From Nostoc sp. FACHB-152 (GTDB lineage: Bacteria; Cyanobacteriota; Cyanobacteriia; Cyanobacteriales; Nostocaceae), in the NCBI RefSeq assembly GCF_014697475.1, contig NZ_JACJRV010000011.1, positions 62,001 to 126,000 on the forward strand: a stretch of 64,000 bases of DNA, in the 5' to 3' direction. Positions 22,520-29,905 of the stretch are shown in pieces; the stretch's first letter is position 1; each line of letters begins with the position of its first letter. The translations under genes and the position numbers were made by a program. A model generated the notes under the pieces. The model saw only the letters and a list, made by a program, of their open reading frames with translations. It searched no databases and was not told the origin of the DNA.

Positions 22520-22820
22520 GTTGGGTGGAGGCGTAAGCTTGCATTTTTGCAGCCAAATAAATTAATATCTGCGCCGTAACCCAACACCAAATCATCTTAA
22601 TTTCAACGTGATAATTGATTGTATAAAACCTTTGTTGTGAAGAGTTAGAGCATTTGTTGGGTTCCACTTTGTTTCACATAACCTACAAAGAAGTGCTTTG
22701 TTATCTGCTACAACATTGCATACTATACGTACATTTGTGTTTTTTAGTTCTAAGAATAGGATAAATACAGGTAAATTTGCTGAAATTATTTGAGAATAAA
22801 AGGTTTGCAAGTTGCAAAAG

Positions 22821-22903
22821 TTAGTTTACGAGTTAGAAACTTAGTTTGCGAGTTGCAAAACTTAGTTTGCGAGTCGCAAAATTTGATTTATAAGTTGTCA
22901 ACA
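22821..22903. repeat. Tandem 20-21-bp repeats
   Basis: About four units of the form TTAGTTTGCGAGTTGCAAAAC beginning at 22821, 22841, 22862 and (degenerate) 22883. No coding sense. Confidence 0.65.
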
Positions 22904-23241: not shown

Positions 23242-23451
23242 TTAATATCCCCCAAGCAAGGCCAAAACACCTGTAATTACAGCCTGAACAACTGCCCCAA
23301 ATACCATCTCTGCTACCTGTTTGATCAGCATCGTCAGGTAATTACTATCCTTACGCTCAACTGCTGCACTTAAATTCTTGGCAAATTGTCGATCTTTTCT
23401 AATTTGTTGACGCACAGCGTTAAGCAAGTCATCTTCAGAATAGCTAGCCAT
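23242..23451 (-). CDS. Small protein with hydrophobic C-terminus, GTPase partner
   Basis: A 69-residue protein, MASYSEDDLLNAVRQQIRKD onward. It has an amphipathic charged first half and a hydrophobic C-terminal helix (LIKQVAEMVFGAVVQAVITG, then VLALLGGY) that could insert in or lie on the membrane. ATG 23451 was chosen because TAAGGAG lies just upstream; the frame continues to 23490 but would overlap the GTPase gene. It is separated from the GTPase stop by 13 bp, so the pair forms an operon. Family not recognised; a role as membrane adaptor or effector of the GTPase is inference. Confidence 0.7.
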   Translation of the reverse strand: MASYSEDDLLNAVRQQIRKDRQFAKNLSAAVERKDSNYLTMLIKQVAEMVFGAVVQAVITGVLALLGGY

Positions 23452-23464
23452 CTGTTTTATCTCC

Positions 23465-24469
23465 TTAAAAATTAACTTGAGCCAGATCAAAAATTACTTT
23501 TCTTCTGTTGGAATCGAAAACTACAATATTAGAATAATTTTTCGCTTCCAACAGAGAAACTTGATTCATTTCCTTTGCTTCAAACAAGTTTTTAAACCGT
23601 TTAATAGCATTTAATCCCAACTTATTGACAATGACTAACATTAATTGAGTCAAATTGAACTTAAAGCGGGATGAACAAGGGATAACTTGATAGTTGTCAT
23701 ACAATCTATCAAATAGGTTTGAATGTTTCGGAAAACGAACTTTGAGATTCTCTAGAGTTTGCTTATCCAAAAATCCGTGATAACGAACAGTGTAATCATC
23801 ATAGTGAAAGGGATACTCATTCACGTCGAAGCCACTGTCATTAAAGGTTTGGGAAACAATTTCTTGACCGTAAGGTTTGAGAAATACTTCTTGATAGTAT
23901 GAAGCTTTTTGTTCTAAAAGCTCTCGCGTTGGTTTAGCAGGCACAAACACACCATAGCCACCCATTTTTGACAAAATCCAGGGAGGAGATGCAAGCAAAT
24001 CAACCTTAGTCAAAACAAAGGTAACTTTGCTCATCAGTTCTACTTGTTGGCTTTTGCTAAAAGAGCTTAAAATTTTACGCAGGGCATGAAGATCAAAAGT
24101 AACAGAGCGACTGTCAGCATGAATTGCCCAAAGTACAATATCAGAGTTTAAAAGCTTTTGCCTATACTGTTCAAGATAGTAAGCATCAGCTTCATCAGAT
24201 TCTCCGATACCAGGGAGGTCGTAAAACCAAAGTTCATGCCCTGAACTATTTCTCGTAGTAACACGCTCAATATTTTTAGTACATGGACGTACAGAACTTG
24301 TAGGCAAATTAGCACTAAACAGAGCGTTAAGAAGTGACGATTTTCCTACACCTGTTTGTCCCATAACTGACACTATAAAAGGTTTAGTTTCTTCTTCTTT
24401 AAGTATTTTTTCAACTTCTTCTTTGACAAGTTTTATTTTTTCATCTGTTCGCAGAGTTCCCGGTTGCAT
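23465..24469 (-). CDS. Dynamin/HSR1-like GTPase
   Basis: A 334-residue P-loop GTPase of the MMR_HSR1 / YfjP-like type. G1 is GQTGVGKSS at 37-45, G3 is DLPGIGES at 84-91 and G4 is TKVD at 154-157. A helical C-terminal region follows, with no transmembrane span of its own. AAGGAAGGA precedes the ATG, and a TTGATT-N17-TATGTT promoter lies 40-70 bp upstream. GTPases of this kind often act at membranes. Its partner here is the hydrophobic 69-residue protein encoded next. Specific function unknown. Confidence 0.88.
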   Translation of the reverse strand: MQPGTLRTDEKIKLVKEEVEKILKEEETKPFIVSVMGQTGVGKSSLLNALFSANLPTSSVRPCTKNIERVTTRNSSGHELWFYDLPGIGESDEADAYYLEQYRQKLLNSDIVLWAIHADSRSVTFDLHALRKILSSFSKSQQVELMSKVTFVLTKVDLLASPPWILSKMGGYGVFVPAKPTRELLEQKASYYQEVFLKPYGQEIVSQTFNDSGFDVNEYPFHYDDYTVRYHGFLDKQTLENLKVRFPKHSNLFDRLYDNYQVIPCSSRFKFNLTQLMLVIVNKLGLNAIKRFKNLFEAKEMNQVSLLEAKNYSNIVVFDSNRRKVIFDLAQVNF

Positions 24470-24510: not shown

Positions 24511-24539
24511 AACATATAGCTTTATTTTTAAATAATCAA
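24511..24539 (-). promoter_or_regulatory. Sigma70-type promoter of the GTPase operon
   Basis: On the minus strand TTGATT (24534-24539) and TATGTT (24511-24516) are separated by exactly 17 bp and lie 42 bp before the GTPase start codon. An equivalent pair lies upstream of the glycine-rich peptide gene. Confidence 0.6.
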
Positions 24540-24588
24540 ACTAGTAAATGTTATTAAATTAACAATTAATAATCAAGAGATTTCATCT

Positions 24589-24697
24589 GTGAATAATAAA
24601 GTATAAAACTAGTTAATTTTTCATAAAATGTGAATTATACTTTAAAAAAGTGAAGCTCATTAGGCTAAATGTGAAACAAGAACAAGAAATGTGTAAT
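24589..24697. promoter_or_regulatory. Phased GTGAA half-site array A
   Basis: On the plus strand GTGAA-type sites begin at 24589, 24630, 24650, 24671 and 24691 (the last is GTGTAA), giving spacings of 41, 20, 21 and 20 bp, multiples of about two helical turns. On the minus strand they read TTCAC and lie upstream of the GTPase -35 box. The arrangement and surrounding sequence recur at 25938-26046. Confidence 0.7.
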
Positions 24698-24900
24698 TAA
24701 AAATATCTAAAAGAATTAGAAAAATTTTTAAATTAAAATATTGCCTTTCGGATCATAATAGAAAATAAGGTTATACACATACGCTATAAGCGATCGCACC
24801 TGCATCTAAAAGAATGGTGCGATCGCTTGTTAGTGAAAGTTTTGAGATGTAGGGCGATCGCTAGAAATGTTTCCAAAAGCATTGGCACACCACAAGCAGA

Positions 24901-24930
24901 AAGCACCAGCTTTTAAACTGGTGCTTTTCA
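24901..24930. terminator. Rho-independent terminator
   Basis: AAAGCACCAG (24901-24910) pairs perfectly with CTGGTGCTTT (24919-24928). It lies 62 bp past the stop of the secreted basic protein gene; A- and T-rich flanks allow termination in either direction. Confidence 0.8.
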
Positions 24931-24991
24931 TTATTAAAATGTTTTCAGTTTTTCTTTACAACAACTAGTGTTGGATTAACATCGGACTAGA

Positions 24992-25402
24992 CTAATCTTC
25001 TCGATATCTTTGTCTTTGTCTCTCCCTTCCGTACTCACGTACATCATCATAAAGTCGCTGTTCTATCTCATTAAGTTCATCTCTAAATCTATCTAGATAA
25101 CTTTGACTACCTGAAATGTGTCCGTCTAATATGTCTTCTAGATAATTTTGCATTCGTGTCAATTGTGTTAGCACTTGCTGTGGAAAATCTCTAGATTCAT
25201 AACCCTTTCTTAGAATATCTATAGTTCTATTAACCCTATCCAAAATATCTACTACATCTGCTCTATTAAGTGGTATTTCATTTCGAGCAAGATATTGAAC
25301 ATTTGTTCTACTGTTACCATATGAAGGAGAAGCATTAACAGCAATAGTAGTTGTCACAGTGGTTACAGCCAAAAAAGCAGCCAAAAGACGTTGATTGAAC
25401 AT
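24992..25402 (-). CDS. Secreted basic coiled protein
   Basis: A 136-residue protein starting MFNQRLLAAFLAVTTVTTT, a clear signal peptide with probable cleavage after VNASPSYG. The mature part is helical and highly charged (DRVNRTIDILRKGYESRDF, FRDELNEIEQRLYDD) and ends in an Arg-rich tail (REYGRERQRQRYRED). AAAAGGA precedes ATG 25402; the frame extends to 25474 but that would bury the signal sequence. No family recognised. It lies inside the GTPase/AAA_35 island between the two array-controlled genes; involvement is inferred from position only. Confidence 0.7.
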   Translation of the reverse strand: MFNQRLLAAFLAVTTVTTTIAVNASPSYGNSRTNVQYLARNEIPLNRADVVDILDRVNRTIDILRKGYESRDFPQQVLTQLTRMQNYLEDILDGHISGSQSYLDRFRDELNEIEQRLYDDVREYGRERQRQRYRED

Positions 25403-25440
25403 TTCAATTTTTCCTTTTAGAATTCTATGAGATTTTAGAA

Positions 25441-25490
25441 AATAACACCCAATTTCAAGAAAATATAGAATCATTAAATTGGATGTTATT
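25441..25490 (-). terminator. 15-bp inverted repeat after glycine-rich peptide gene
   Basis: The arms 25441-25455 and 25476-25490 pair at 14 of 15 positions around a 20-base loop. On the minus strand the second arm runs into TTATTTTC. It could end the upstream gene or act as an operator for the secreted protein gene that follows. Confidence 0.5.
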
Positions 25491-25529
25491 TTATCTGAGC
25501 AGTGTTTACGATTGGATTGCTAGGAATCT

Positions 25530-25751
25530 TTATTTGTTGCCATTTTTAGCCAGGTGGCGGTAATATTTCCATCCTAGTGAAATTATTACTGTACCCGCAC
25601 CTGCTCCTAATGCTCCTACTGCTATTGCTGGACTTGCAATAGCAGTTAATCCAGTAGCTACAGCACCTACGCCTAAACCAGTGATTGCACTGCCGACTTT
25701 TATTACATTATCAGCAGCTTCATCTAATTTCTTTTTATCTTCTTCACTCAT
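25530..25751 (-). CDS. Glycine-rich hydrophobic small protein
   Basis: A 73-residue protein with a charged start MSEEDKKKLDEAADNVIKVG, then a long Gly/Ala-rich hydrophobic stretch (about residues 22-58, two possible helices) and a basic tail YYRHLAKNGNK. The pattern suits a small membrane or pore-forming peptide. ATG 25751 was chosen over 25793 because the longer form adds a stray hydrophobic leader; neither has a strong ribosome site. Its promoter (25859-25887) and upstream array match those of the GTPase operon, so both are probably switched on together. Function unknown. Confidence 0.65.
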   Translation of the reverse strand: MSEEDKKKLDEAADNVIKVGSAITGLGVGAVATGLTAIASPAIAVGALGAGAGTVIISLGWKYYRHLAKNGNK

Positions 25752-25858
25752 AGGTTTTAGTTGAAACAGAATGATTGTCTGTAAAAAGAACATAAAACAG
25801 ATTTAGAAAAATTATTTAATTCAAATTTTCTGCTGTTGAATGTCATCTCTTGAAAATT

Positions 25859-25887
25859 AAGATAAAGCTTGATTTTATAATAGTCAA
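25859..25887 (-). promoter_or_regulatory. Sigma70-type promoter of glycine-rich peptide gene
   Basis: On the minus strand TTGACT (25882-25887) and TATCTT (25859-25864) are separated by 17 bp, matching the GTPase promoter in sequence and spacing. Confidence 0.6.
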
Positions 25888-25937
25888 TCCAGAATAAACC
25901 TATTGTTATTTTATTGAATAATTAATATTTTTTACCT

Positions 25938-26046
25938 GTGAATGATTAACTATAAAAATAGTGATCTCTACAGCGAATGTGAATTATATTCCAAAAATGT
26001 GAAGCCAATTATGCCAAATGTGAAAAAAGAGAAATAAATGTGTAAT
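25938..26046. promoter_or_regulatory. Phased GTGAA half-site array B
   Basis: Sites begin at 25938, 25979, 25999, 26020 and 26040 (the last is GTGTAA): spacings 41, 20, 21 and 20 bp, identical to array A. The sequence between the sites is also clearly related (both end in TTTTAAATTAAAAT downstream). It could serve the minus-strand peptide gene, the plus-strand HTH-AAA_35 gene, or both. Confidence 0.7.
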
Positions 26047-26219
26047 AAAAAATAGCTAAATTGATTTTTAGAAATTTTAAATTAAAATCTTTACTGCTGT
26101 ATACTCAGTTTAAGTAATTGAGATTCCAGGCAAAATAATAGATATTCATATGAGAGTATTTCATCGAAAAGATAATACCTCAGTCAATTACTTATGATGA
26201 GATTAATACCATAAAAGCC

Positions 26220-27536
26220 ATGAATTACCTAGAATTTGAGCAAAAATGGAAAAAACTAGAGCAGAAGCCTAGCCAAACAGATGTTGTGCTGGATATGTTA
26301 AAAGGGTTGTCTGATATAGAGATTGCTAAAAATAGAGGTATTACCGAAGCAACTGTACGCAAGCATATTTCGACAACCTGCAAAGCCTTCGGTGTCAAAA
26401 ACCGCCGTAAGTTAGTTTCTTTGTATGAGACTTACAAGCCAGAGCTACTCATAGGTAATAGTGCAATCAACCACACTAAACATATGAGGCAGCCACTAAC
26501 GGGGCGTGTGCCACTAGATTCGCCACTGTACCTAGAACGGGCCGCAGATGAAAAGTGCAGACGATATCTGCAAGCAGCCCAAAGTAGGGAAGAGTCTTTA
26601 CCCTTCATTCGGATTAGAGCATCTAAAGGCATGGGCAAGTCTTCACTGCTGGTAAGGCTTTGTCACTTTTTAGAGAAACAGCAAAAGCAGGCAGTTGGCT
26701 TTATTGATTTAGGTAGTATTGATTTATCTGAATTCACAGACCTGAACCAGCTTTTGTATCAGTTCACTTATGTGATATCTCAAAAATTTATTAATAAACT
26801 TAATAACCATACTCCGCCTGATCTCCAAGATTACTGGCGAAAAGATATTGCATCAGGATTGAATTGCACTAATTATCTCAAAGAACATATCTTCTCTAAA
26901 ATAGAACAGCCAAAAACTTTATTTATTGATGGAATTGACACTGTTTTAGGTCAAGAAAAAACTCAGAACCCTTTTTTAAATCTGTTGAGAACTTGGAATG
27001 AAAGTGAAATGAAACTGGTGAGTGAGGTTCCAATTGTCTGGCCAAGTATAGTAATTGCTTACTCAACAGAGCCATACCCAGAGTATGGCATTAAAGGTTC
27101 AATCATGCAAAATGTAGGCATAGAAATAGATTTAAAAGAATTTAGCCTAGATGAAACCCTGGAGTTAGCTAAGAGATACGGCTTAAATTGGAGTTTAAAT
27201 GAAGTCAATTCACTCAGGCAATTAATTGGTGGTCATCCAGCTTTAATTAATCGAGCATTCTTTGAAATTAGCCAAGGTAATATAACTTTGGCAGAACTAG
27301 AGATGGAAGCTACTTCGCTAACTGGCCCTTTTAGATATGATTTACTTAAAAAACTAGACTTACTTGAACCAAATGAAAATTTAAAACAATGCTTTCAGAA
27401 AATTTTGCGTGGAGAGAATTGTAATGATGAATTTGCAAATTTTCAGTTAGAAAAAGCAGGCTTAATTAAAGTAGGACAAAAGGGCGTAACAGTATCATGT
27501 GAGCTATATAAAAAATATTTTGATTTGCACCTATAA
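26220..27536 (+). CDS. HTH-AAA_35 (STAND-like) regulator
   Basis: A 438-residue protein. Residues about 18-68 form a LuxR/FixJ-like helix-turn-helix (LSDIEIAKNRGITEATVRKH, then ISTTCKAFGVKNRRKLVSL). From about 95 an AAA_35-type ATPase domain begins with the family entry PLDSPLYLERAADEK. Walker A is ASKGMGKSS (134-142), lacking the usual leading Gly. Walker B is LFIDGID (234-240), with Gly where the catalytic Glu is expected, so ATP turnover may be weak. This layout recalls MalT-type STAND activators and the HTH-bearing proteins of vWA-MoxR-associated systems. It could bind the phased arrays nearby; that is inference. Confidence 0.85.
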   Translation: MNYLEFEQKWKKLEQKPSQTDVVLDMLKGLSDIEIAKNRGITEATVRKHISTTCKAFGVKNRRKLVSLYETYKPELLIGNSAINHTKHMRQPLTGRVPLDSPLYLERAADEKCRRYLQAAQSREESLPFIRIRASKGMGKSSLLVRLCHFLEKQQKQAVGFIDLGSIDLSEFTDLNQLLYQFTYVISQKFINKLNNHTPPDLQDYWRKDIASGLNCTNYLKEHIFSKIEQPKTLFIDGIDTVLGQEKTQNPFLNLLRTWNESEMKLVSEVPIVWPSIVIAYSTEPYPEYGIKGSIMQNVGIEIDLKEFSLDETLELAKRYGLNWSLNEVNSLRQLIGGHPALINRAFFEISQGNITLAELEMEATSLTGPFRYDLLKKLDLLEPNENLKQCFQKILRGENCNDEFANFQLEKAGLIKVGQKGVTVSCELYKKYFDLHL

Positions 27537-27660
27537 AATTTTACGGCAGTAGTACATTGTATAAGGCTAGCAATTAAGCTAATACTAGTGTAAACTGCAA
27601 CCAAGGGCTATACACTTCTCAAAACGCTTGTTAGACAAACGTTGTAGGAAAAAGTGGCTA

Positions 27661-29466
27661 ATGGACAGGGCTAATCAGGGAAGCTTTTACCAAATCGAAG
27701 CAGGTACATTACCTCTAAATGCACCAACTTATGTAGAGCGAAAAGCAGACGAAAAACTGCGTCAATTTGCTTGTTCTACCCAGACAATTAATCGGGTTTG
27801 TTATATTCTGGCTGCCCGACAAATGGGAAAATCTAGCTTAATGGTGCGGATGACCAAACATTTAGCTAACTGTGGGGCAGTTGGCGTTAAAATTTATTTG
27901 CAGCAACTAGGCAATGTTGAGTCAGAGAAAGCACTATGGTTTAACCTTTTGCGCTTGATATGCCAACAAGTTGTACTTCGGGAAGGAAACTTAGTTAGTA
28001 ACCTGGATGCATTTTGGGATAAAAATCCAGGGATACAGCCAACAGTACAATTTGAAGAATTTTTAATTCAGGAAGTACTGAGCAAAATAGATAAAAAAAA
28101 GCTAATTATTTTTATCGATGAAATTCAAACATTAACTGACTGGAATTTACAAAATAGTTTTATAGGATTTCTCAAAAACCTCTCAGAAAACCGCGACCAA
28201 GTACCGCTTCAAAGACTAAATTTTGTTTTAATTGGAGTCGCTAAACCTTCAGATTTAATTACCAGTAATAGTTACTCCTTCAATTTGGGAGACTATATTG
28301 AACTAGGTGGTTTGTTGAAAAAAGACTGTCAACCATTGCTGCAAGGATTAAACAAGGTCACAAGAGAACCAGATAAAGTCCTAGAGTTACTTTTAGATTG
28401 GACAGGCGGTCAACCATTTCTTACTCAGGTGCTTTGCCACTTAATAGCCACTGAAGCTCAAATTCCTAATAATTATAATTTAAAAGATTACGTCGAGCGA
28501 GTAGTAACCGATAAAATTACCAATGATTGGAAGCTCCAAGATAGACAATCACATCTCCAAGAAATTGAAAATTGGTTTATTCGTGTAACGGACAGCTATA
28601 AACATGAAAAATTAAAAGCGATTAGACTTTATAAAAAAATTCTTAATCAAGATATTGTTCATTTTAATGAGCGCGATACAGTGCAATGGGATTTGCTAAT
28701 TTCAGGTTTGGTTACTAAAAATAATGGTTATTTAAAAGTTACCAACCGCATCTACGAGAGGGTTTTTAATTTAAATTGGATTCATAATCAAGAAAAAAAG
28801 CTACAGGAGCATAATATGGTAGATCCCTTAAGCACTATTTATAACAGAGATGTATTTATACTAATTGACCAAAGTGGTTCAATGACTAAACAAGATGCCG
28901 CAGACAGCAATTTAAAACGCTGGGATAGTCTCAAAGAAATAGTTATGTCTCATGTAGATATGATCCTCTCTGAAAAAAATAGTCAACAGGAAAAAATTTG
29001 TGATTCTATCTATCTAGATTTGTTTAGTAGAAGCAAATTAAGAAGAGAACCCCATCAAATTAAAAAAGCCACTCAAGTTGAGAACATTTTTTTAGAAAAT
29101 CGACCCGATACATCAACTTTTGTCGTTCCAGCACTGAAGAGAGCTATTAATTATTGGTTCGATAGTCGCGTTCAATCAAAAACTCAAGGTGCTTTTTTTA
29201 TCATATATACTGATGGTCAATTTGATGATACAAAAGCTTTTGAAGCATTAATAGAAGACACTTGCAAACAAATATATAATGAGCGAGTTATCAAAATTAT
29301 TGTAGTTGGTATTGGTAAAGATATTGATGTGGAATATTTTCAAAGTTTAAATAATAATCTCCAAGGTAATGTAGATAAAAATGGCAACCCCTGTGATATT
29401 TTTGTTTTTGAGTTAGAGACTGAAATGGAAGATATTATTGAACTTATGGAACGTGAAATAAACTAG
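27661..29466 (+). CDS. AAA_35 ATPase fused to a von Willebrand A domain
   Basis: Start placed at ATG 27661 (GGAAA upstream; an in-frame TTG at 27628 is possible), 601 residues. The N-terminal AAA_35 ATPase begins PLNAPTYVERKADEK, with Walker A AARQMGKSS (51-59) and Walker B IIFIDEIQ (149-156) carrying the Glu that its upstream neighbour lacks. A helical region follows, then a vWA domain from about 395 with the MIDAS motif DQSGS (403-407), the Thr in DTSTFVVPA and the Asp in YTDGQFDD. It is about 125 bp from the HTH-AAA_35 gene and probably in its operon. A signalling or chaperone-like ATPase is likely; function unknown. Confidence 0.85.
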   Translation: MDRANQGSFYQIEAGTLPLNAPTYVERKADEKLRQFACSTQTINRVCYILAARQMGKSSLMVRMTKHLANCGAVGVKIYLQQLGNVESEKALWFNLLRLICQQVVLREGNLVSNLDAFWDKNPGIQPTVQFEEFLIQEVLSKIDKKKLIIFIDEIQTLTDWNLQNSFIGFLKNLSENRDQVPLQRLNFVLIGVAKPSDLITSNSYSFNLGDYIELGGLLKKDCQPLLQGLNKVTREPDKVLELLLDWTGGQPFLTQVLCHLIATEAQIPNNYNLKDYVERVVTDKITNDWKLQDRQSHLQEIENWFIRVTDSYKHEKLKAIRLYKKILNQDIVHFNERDTVQWDLLISGLVTKNNGYLKVTNRIYERVFNLNWIHNQEKKLQEHNMVDPLSTIYNRDVFILIDQSGSMTKQDAADSNLKRWDSLKEIVMSHVDMILSEKNSQQEKICDSIYLDLFSRSKLRREPHQIKKATQVENIFLENRPDTSTFVVPALKRAINYWFDSRVQSKTQGAFFIIYTDGQFDDTKAFEALIEDTCKQIYNERVIKIIVVGIGKDIDVEYFQSLNNNLQGNVDKNGNPCDIFVFELETEMEDIIELMEREIN

Positions 29467-29656: not shown

Positions 29657-29905
29657 GTGGAAAGTATCAGTATTTCCTTACCTGACACTATGAGAGCTTA
29701 TGTAGAAGAACAGGTAGCAAAAGGCGGCTACAGTAGTGTCAGCGAATATTTCCGTGAATTAGTACGACAAGACCAAAAGCAGAGAGCAAAAGAACGTCTA
29801 GAAACAATGCTTCTCGAAGGATTAAACTCTGGAAATGCAACAGAAATGACTGCTCAAGAGTGGGAAGATATTCGTCAAGCAGTACGAGAAAGAATTAGCA
29901 TTTAG
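29657..29905 (+). CDS. ParD-family antitoxin, without adjacent toxin
   Basis: An 82-residue ribbon-helix-helix protein of the ParD/CopG type: ISISLPDTMRAYVEEQVAKG, then YSSVSEYFRELVRQDQ. The charged C-terminal half is the part that would bind a ParE/RelE toxin. The start is GTG 29657 with AGGAAA upstream. No ParE-like reading frame follows before the tRNA gene on either strand, so this looks like an orphan or degraded toxin-antitoxin locus. It may act only as a DNA-binding regulator now. Confidence 0.85.
   Translation: MESISISLPDTMRAYVEEQVAKGGYSSVSEYFRELVRQDQKQRAKERLETMLLEGLNSGNATEMTAQEWEDIRQAVRERISI

Follow-up and report, generated by a model that had tools for sequence, protein, structure and literature searches.

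The locus described here lies in a window of 64,000 nucleotides from Nostoc sp. FACHB-152 (contig NZ_JACJRV010000011.1, positions 62,001 to 126,000), and all coordinates below are counted from the first letter of this window. It contains two copies of a putative operator-promoter block, each with an array of short half-sites, beside the gene for a protein, called HTH-AAA_35 here, in which a helix-turn-helix (HTH) domain is joined to an AAA_35 NTPase domain. Sequence comparison placed copy A at 24511-24742 and copy B at 25857-26091, without assignment to a strand. Their core was a gap-free block of 175 bp (24568-24742 and 25917-26091), and gapped, weaker homology continued beyond it as far as the candidate promoters (24511 and 25857), with 73% identity for the longer block. 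Array A (24588-24695, plus strand) was composed of the half-sites TGTGAA, TGTGAA, AGTGAA, TGTGAA and TGTGTA at 24588, 24629, 24649, 24670 and 24690. Array B (25937-26044, plus strand) was composed of four TGTGAA and a final TGTGTA, starting at 25937, 25978, 25998, 26019 and 26039. TGTGWA was thus counted four times in A, whose third site is AGTGAA, and five times in B. Read as 5-mers, GTGAA was found at 24589, 24630, 24650 and 24671 and GTGTA(A) at 24691 in A. The sequence-only reading had described two arrays of GTGAA or GTGTAA sites with equal spacings of 41, 20, 21 and 20 bp and with related DNA between the sites. Both observations were confirmed: every site in B lay at its position in A plus 1349, and the identity over the gap-free 175 bp was 77%. 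The 41-bp gap corresponded to an empty slot, which in B contained an off-phase GTGAT at 25961. An extra inverted half-site, TACACA, was located at 24774-24779, past array A and outside the homologous block. Palindromes of GCGATCGC, which we take to be HIP1, were also observed just past array A, at 24788-24866.

For neither block did any of 20,000 dinucleotide shuffles reach the observed TGTGWA counts, and the counts of the GTGAA/GTGTA 5-mers were reached in 0 of 20,000 shuffles for A and 1 of 20,000 for B. The two arrays were the densest TGTGWA clusters within the window. When A was compared with B, the sites (positions -2 to +5) were identical at 39 of 40 positions and the remaining array at 50 of 75 (hypergeometric p 5e-5), a value that is somewhat flattering because the sites were chosen for their presence in both copies. 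In an in-phase chain test with any 7-mer as seed, 60 shuffles of each block were made, and the observed chain of five was reached in 4 of those of A and 5 of those of B; this test was weaker because the DNA is AT-rich. The identical spacing of A and B is common by descent. Since they are one duplicated element, the shared spacings count as one observation and not two. It is doubtful that the second array is a passive duplication with one copy out of use. The copies are indeed paralogous, and the inspected upstream regions of GTPase orthologues showed no array, as this explanation would expect, yet the sites stayed almost unchanged while the copies diverged by 23%, which argues for selection on both.

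Each copy contained a candidate promoter on the minus strand. Promoter A (TTGATT-N17-TATGTT, 24511-24539) was directed towards a GTPase gene and agreed with 8 of 12 consensus positions; it was absent from the promoter-scan list, for which the cut-off was 9 of 12. Promoter B (TTGACT-N17-TATCTT, 25859-25887) was directed towards an 87-aa gene, agreed with 9 of 12 positions and was in the list. The scan gave 18 sites in 1.9 kb vs 9.9 expected. The TTGAYT-N17-TATSTT promoters of the sequence-only reading are present as strings that align with each other, and these are only candidates. The distance from the candidate -35 element to the nearest array site, which lies upstream of it, was about 50 bp.

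The GTPase gene (23465-24469, minus strand) encoded 334 aa of the MMR_HSR1/dynamin-like type with a weak PADLOC match to LeoA/LeoBC. It was accompanied by an 82-aa open reading frame (ORF) for a small protein with a hydrophobic C-terminus (23242-23490, minus strand), where a start at MASYS (~23451) would follow the GTPase stop. What had been called a GTPase pair is really one GTPase with this small hydrophobic protein. Homologues of the small protein adjoined the GTPase in G028 and stood beside a GTPase remnant in G046. The hydrophobic 87-aa ORF (25530-25793, minus strand), with a probable start at MSEEDK (~25751), was weakly SLATT-like (NCBIfam SLATT_fungal, E 0.0032, below the cut-off). A 160-aa ORF with an N-terminal signal-like segment (24992-25474, minus strand) had a probable start at MFNQ (~25402). 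Its membership of the 87-aa operon is uncertain because a 22-nt inverted repeat with a 10-nt loop (25439-25492) at its start separates the two genes; this repeat is possibly the terminator of the 87-aa gene and was absent from the terminator-scan list. The other flank of array A is the 3' end of the 160-aa gene, so array A would serve the GTPase operon only. Array B was located between the divergent 87-aa and HTH-AAA_35 genes, with sites at -282 to -180 relative to the latter, and may serve both. The HTH-AAA_35 gene (26220-27536, plus strand) encoded 438 aa with an N-terminal GerE/LuxR HTH (recognition helix ITEATVRKHI) followed by AAA_35. Directly downstream was the gene for a partner, the 612-aa AAA_35-vWA protein (27628-29466, plus strand), and a ParD-family antitoxin gene followed at 29657-29905. 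A 21-bp tandem repeat, 3.8 copies of GTTTGCGAGTTGCAAAACTTA and also of two-turn period, was observed at 22803-22881 between two convergent genes.

We searched for the arrays elsewhere. A DNA search of the whole genome with the block (8.6 Mb, in which the window is C13:62001-126000) found the two copies. The pattern GTGAA-N14..17-GTGAA-N14..17-GTG gave 10 matches, four in the arrays and six at five other places, and the reversed control gave one. Three of the six outside matches fell within clear simple repeats (C112 and C169). The sequence-only reading had called for such a genome-wide search, and the full arrays did not turn up at random: no TGTGWA array was seen at any of the five outside places, which had at most one TGTGWA per strand. 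For TGTGWA-N14..15-TGTGWA, four of 15 matches were in the arrays and 11 elsewhere vs seven in the reversed control. Lone pairs elsewhere are therefore close to chance level, and this locus was the only place where five-site TGTGWA arrays were found. All TGTGWA arrays found in this genome were within 2 kb of the HTH-AAA_35 gene. When block B was searched in 150 genomes including this one, only matches of 27-63 bp were obtained outside the locus, one in this genome and the others in 10 of the 149 remaining genomes. No TGTGWA array was seen upstream of any GTPase orthologue whose upstream region was inspected. The orthologue in G041 had unrelated 11-bp direct repeats (TATCAAACCTC) about 100 bp upstream (L067:5502-5560), which is a different phased array at the same gene. 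In plasmid searches, HTH-AAA_35 relatives were found in 37 records, mostly from Nostoc, Leptolyngbya, Calothrix and alike; all were below 60% identity and seven covered at least 80%. These searches gave no close HTH-AAA_35 relative; the GTPases they returned were distant, and the 87-aa protein had no match. In the literature, judged by titles and abstract openings, no description of these arrays was found.

The HTH-AAA_35 protein matched Pfam GerE with E 2.9e-6, and its profile matched GerE, NarL and related solved HTH domains (GerE chain 1fse, E 1.8e-5, with alignment). AAA_35 was matched with E 1.4e-73, and the matches to NPHP3_N, nSTAND_NTPase5 and NACHT were weak. GG.P.L was invariant in the alignment and resembles the GxP motif of STAND proteins. 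The domain scan matched no repeat family, and AAA_35 extended to residue 435 of 438. When HTH residues 1-84 were used as a query, 55 matches were obtained in 47 of 376 genomes, this one included. In this genome, the single match to the HTH module at E <=1e-7 was the gene adjacent to the arrays (14 of 33 first-look candidates scored).

Upstream regions of module genes were compared with 195 control regions, from which window genes beginning or ending between 24400 and 26300 were excluded. The first set comprised 29 upstream regions minus five near-duplicates picked by eye. In these 24 regions, TGTGAA ranked first and TGTGTA second of 1702 hexamers: TGTGAA was found in 15 of 24 vs 12 of 195 controls, and TGTGTA in 13 of 24 vs 11 of 195. 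The ranking was given no motif; TGTGWA had already been noticed by eye in some of the sequences, and GTGAA/GTGTAA came from the original observation. The held-out set comprised 23 loci minus nine with a 20-mer common to another upstream region. At least one TGTGWA was found in 10 of these 14 vs 23 of 195 controls (Fisher p 1.7e-6), and TGTGAA ranked second and TGTGTA sixth of 1491. Of the 55 matches, the gene studied here and those of G165 and G238, which belong to the orthologue set, were outside both sets.

The layout of the half-sites was also recorded. TWCACA-N2-TGTGWA (offset 8) was formed by seven pairs and TGTGWA-N6-TWCACA (offset 12) by five, and direct TGTGWA pairs occurred four times at 20 bp and once at 21 bp. 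The controls (250 bp each vs 300 for module genes) contained two pairs in total. These data bear on two other explanations. The CRP half-site is TGTGA, and CRP binding requires a second, inverted copy (TGTGA-N6-TCACA). The similar half-site could point to a different regulator, for instance one of the CRP family, but the arrays are same-strand only, and the lone inverted TACACA is outside block A. At module genes, pairs in +- order had offset 12 in five cases and the CRP value of 10 in two, and TGTGWA tracks one HTH subtype. We regard a binder of this kind as very unlikely. As direct repeats of 20-22 bp in an AT-rich context, the arrays look like iterons. An origin as plasmid-like iterons or another structural repeat, rather than promoter elements, is hardly credible, as no replication initiator was found among ten neighbouring proteins scanned, each copy ends in a candidate promoter before a gene, and the half-site is common to upstream regions of genes with the same HTH.

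The pattern TACACANNTGTGAA gave 11 matches in nine module genomes, selected since such sites had already been seen there (G245 had none); eight were at module promoters, and each of these eight had YC at its centre. Ten congeners, of which only G008 was shown to be free of the module, gave 12 matches, none with YC. Ten module proteins were scanned, some of them end-clipped. Three had TIR and AAA_35, one AAA_35 alone, one NACHT and two NB-ARC; the rest comprised one with TPR, one with weak AAA matches and one with the HTH alone. In L163, L166, L184, L182, L175 and L171, an N-terminal LuxR-type HTH was followed by TIR-AAA_35, NACHT or NB-ARC. By their predicted domains, these are NLR-like proteins with a DNA-binding end.

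Orthologues of HTH-AAA_35 were then considered. Their AAA parts were 41-58% identical to that of the protein studied here, and their HTH parts fell into different types. TACGCA repeats at 20-21 bp were found upstream of the genes in G165, G214a, G238a, G225 and G214b, and ACGCA repeats at 20-21 bp in G123 and G198; in G252 and G182 the repeat was TTTGCGT, with a spacing of 19 or 21 bp. Repeats similar to GAAGCATTA at 10-12 bp were found in G100, G167, G200, G109, G173, G156 and G145; for the last four, the spacing was judged by eye. GTGTA repeats without clear phase were present in G387 and G238b, and in G137, G098 and G126 none of these motifs was present as a pair. TACGCA-N13..15-TACGCA gave 12 matches in nine relatives, nine just upstream of HTH-AAA_35 genes and three not; eight of the nine promoter matches had suggested the pattern, the match in G195 was new, and G198 had no strict match. 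This genome had two strict TACGCA pairs, neither at an HTH-AAA_35 gene. In L116 (G214 C108:10057-10161), the TACGCA operator and promoter upstream of the orthologue were tandemly duplicated, 78 bp apart.

The motif followed the type of HTH. A Gly before TVRK in a LuxR-type HTH went with TACGCA and a non-LuxR, winged-like HTH with GAAGCATTA; the protein studied here has Ala and the TGTGAA arrays. In a table of 60 genes including this one, a TGTGWA pair within 60 bp was found in 21 of 29 non-Gly LuxR-type genes and a TACGCA pair in none of the 29. Gly-type genes had a TGTGWA pair in one of 16 and a TACGCA pair in eight of 16. Other LuxR-like helices had a TGTGWA pair in two of eight, and non-LuxR HTH genes had a AAGCATTA-like pair in six of seven. 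Among controls, TGTGWA, TACGCA and AAGCATTA-like pairs were found in 1, 1 and 0 of 195. The table counts near-identical orthologues separately (G109/G173/G156 and G100/G167), and its genes are not independent because the HTH/operator split follows clades. A 6-mer lag test gave lag 20/21 in 11 of 17 regions, this genome excluded, vs 59 of 197 other upstream regions (p 0.005); it was given less weight, because the control count is raised by 7-bp tandem repeats and the 17 regions were already inspected before the test. Upstream of the HTH-AAA_35 genes in L135 and L136, direct repeats of about 11 bp (GAGGTATTAATGAGGTACAAAG; CATAAATGATGTATAAATGATG) were noted by eye, again with a non-LuxR HTH. The sequence-only reading had named HTH-AAA_35 as the candidate binder; the half-site motif at related genes and the phased direct repeats at orthologues support this prediction.

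The partner gene was conserved beside the regulator. VWA was matched in the 27628-29466 protein with E 4.7e-6. An AAA_35-vWA gene adjoined all seven of the best HTH-AAA_35 relatives outside this genome (39-57% identity). Among 20 further stretches upstream of vWA matches, an HTH-AAA_35 gene was found in 14 and none in six, one of which was G161, where the gene sits further upstream. Across the order, 33 of 388 genomes, this one included, had a match to the vWA protein. Within the family it was matched in 2 of 217 genomes, this one and another with a fragment, so the locus was probably acquired. A class-wide search gave matches in 5 of 388 genomes, this one and four of the same order already seen, and a contig-level genome scan with the vWA protein confirmed no relative. 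The G161 stretch (L136:7303-15134), which is from the same order, contained in turn HTH-AAA_35, AAA_35-HEPN_Swt1 (weak Dynamin_N), DO-GTPase2, an unknown 308-aa protein and AAA_35-vWA. DO-GTPase systems are nearly absent from cyanobacteria according to the available part of PMC7159879.

Based on these results, we consider it likely that the arrays are operators of the adjacent HTH-AAA_35 protein, which would act as a MalT-like regulator of its own, the 87-aa-gene and the GTPase operons. The N-terminal LuxR-type HTH would read the half-site TGTG(A/T)A. The spacing holds the sites on one face, and HTH-AAA_35 would therefore probably bind as an oligomer: five like-oriented half-sites about two helical turns apart would allow the NTPase to bind one face of the DNA cooperatively, as MalT does. 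Array B would be the operator of the HTH-AAA_35 and AAA_35-vWA operon and of the divergent membrane-peptide gene. Array A would be a copy of operator B with its promoter, placed in front of the GTPase and membrane-peptide operon and bringing it into the same local regulon. In our view B is ancestral and A was captured by duplication, because the closest GTPase orthologue (G028) has no array. The AAA_35/vWA pair may sense a signal that leads to oligomerisation and switches on the GTPase and the small membrane proteins in a stress or conflict response. The single regulon that the sequence-only reading drew from the shared design stands insofar as two units share a control element; the identical spacing is descent, and the operon of the regulator itself is probably a further member.

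Activation rather than repression is a guess. The same protein could instead be a repressor that keeps both operons off until a signal frees it. The TACGCA repeats of orthologues near the start codon (-72, -51 and -30 in G123; -52 and -31 in G225) suit repression as well as activation. The distance of the nearest window site from the candidate -35 is more typical of activators, and MalT, the nearest working model, recruits RNA polymerase, as the consulted portion of PMC4381067 describes. Repression by HTH-AAA_35 appears unlikely.

Several observations weigh against operators of a MalT-like HTH-AAA_35 regulator. A TGTGWA pair within 60 bp was absent in eight of the 29 non-Gly LuxR-type genes (G238b, L162, L164, L167, L171, L205, L213 and L216). 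Other module genes had mostly inverted pairs with offsets 8 and 12, with direct pairs at 20-21 bp in some cases only, and five same-strand TGTGWA sites were found in none of the other regions among the 60 upstream regions tabulated. The related module genes are not independent samples, and the controls were not matched base for base. The G028 GTPase orthologue (72-78% identity) had no array in 520 bp upstream, and in the stretches examined from other genomes, some of which were short contigs, no HTH-AAA_35 gene was found close to the GTPase gene.

If HTH-AAA_35 binds these arrays, an NLR-like family with a DNA-binding end gains a concrete predicted binding site. For members with AAA_35-vWA partners, a first recognition rule is suggested, in which a non-Gly residue before TVRK would specify TGTGWA and Gly would specify TACGCA. 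The predicted site and this rule make it possible to list target genes by sequence and to put a little-known regulator family to a direct test. The two blocks also suggest that an accessory operon can join a regulon through copying of an operator-promoter block. A broader idea, which we offer as speculation and think unlikely as a whole, is that a cyanobacterial immune-receptor-like family (HTH with AAA_35, TIR-AAA_35, NACHT or NB-ARC) assembles on its own phased arrays. The site number and helical spacing of the operator scaffold would set the oligomerisation threshold, and joint exchange of HTH and operator would give insulated circuit copies.

The locus was compared with three known systems. 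It resembles the SARP-LAL regulators of Streptomyces, which in the part of PMC5930380 consulted are large ATP-binding LuxR-family regulators with heptameric direct-repeat operators; they serve actinobacterial secondary metabolism, and the likeness is by description, not by sequence. The combination of an NTPase with vWA, a GTPase and SLATT-like or transmembrane parts is similar to two kinds of conflict system described by Kaur et al. (2020, PMC7159879), the MoxR-vWA ternary and the GTPase-centric systems, and the G161 operon, with AAA_35-HEPN_Swt1 and DO-GTPase2, is also like them. Unlike in those systems, the constant proteins here are HTH-AAA_35 and AAA_35-vWA, and the scan of ten window proteins gave no match to MoxR, VMAP or GAP1. 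For this reason, the locus was not classed with them. The GTPase-centric systems pair a DO-GTPase with GAP1, whereas the window GTPase is of the MMR_HSR1/dynamin type and DO-GTPase2 was found in the relative G161 only. In the part of PMC7159879 consulted, HTH domains are effectors or parts of a toxin-antitoxin pair, and a term search of its main text did not find "promoter" or "operator". The likeness to MalT of the Escherichia coli maltose system and to other LuxR-type STAND activators lies in a GerE-type HTH on a P-loop NTPase and in several boxes per target promoter, here five sites per array that would be boxes for HTH-AAA_35. MalT multimers bind MalT boxes cooperatively according to the consulted portion of PMC4381067. 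Unlike MalT, the 438-aa protein carries its HTH at the N-terminus, with no sensor domain recognised, including one of the SUPR/TPR type. It also differs from MalT in having a separate AAA_35-vWA partner, in the half-site TGTGWA and in the exchange of the HTH between types among orthologues.

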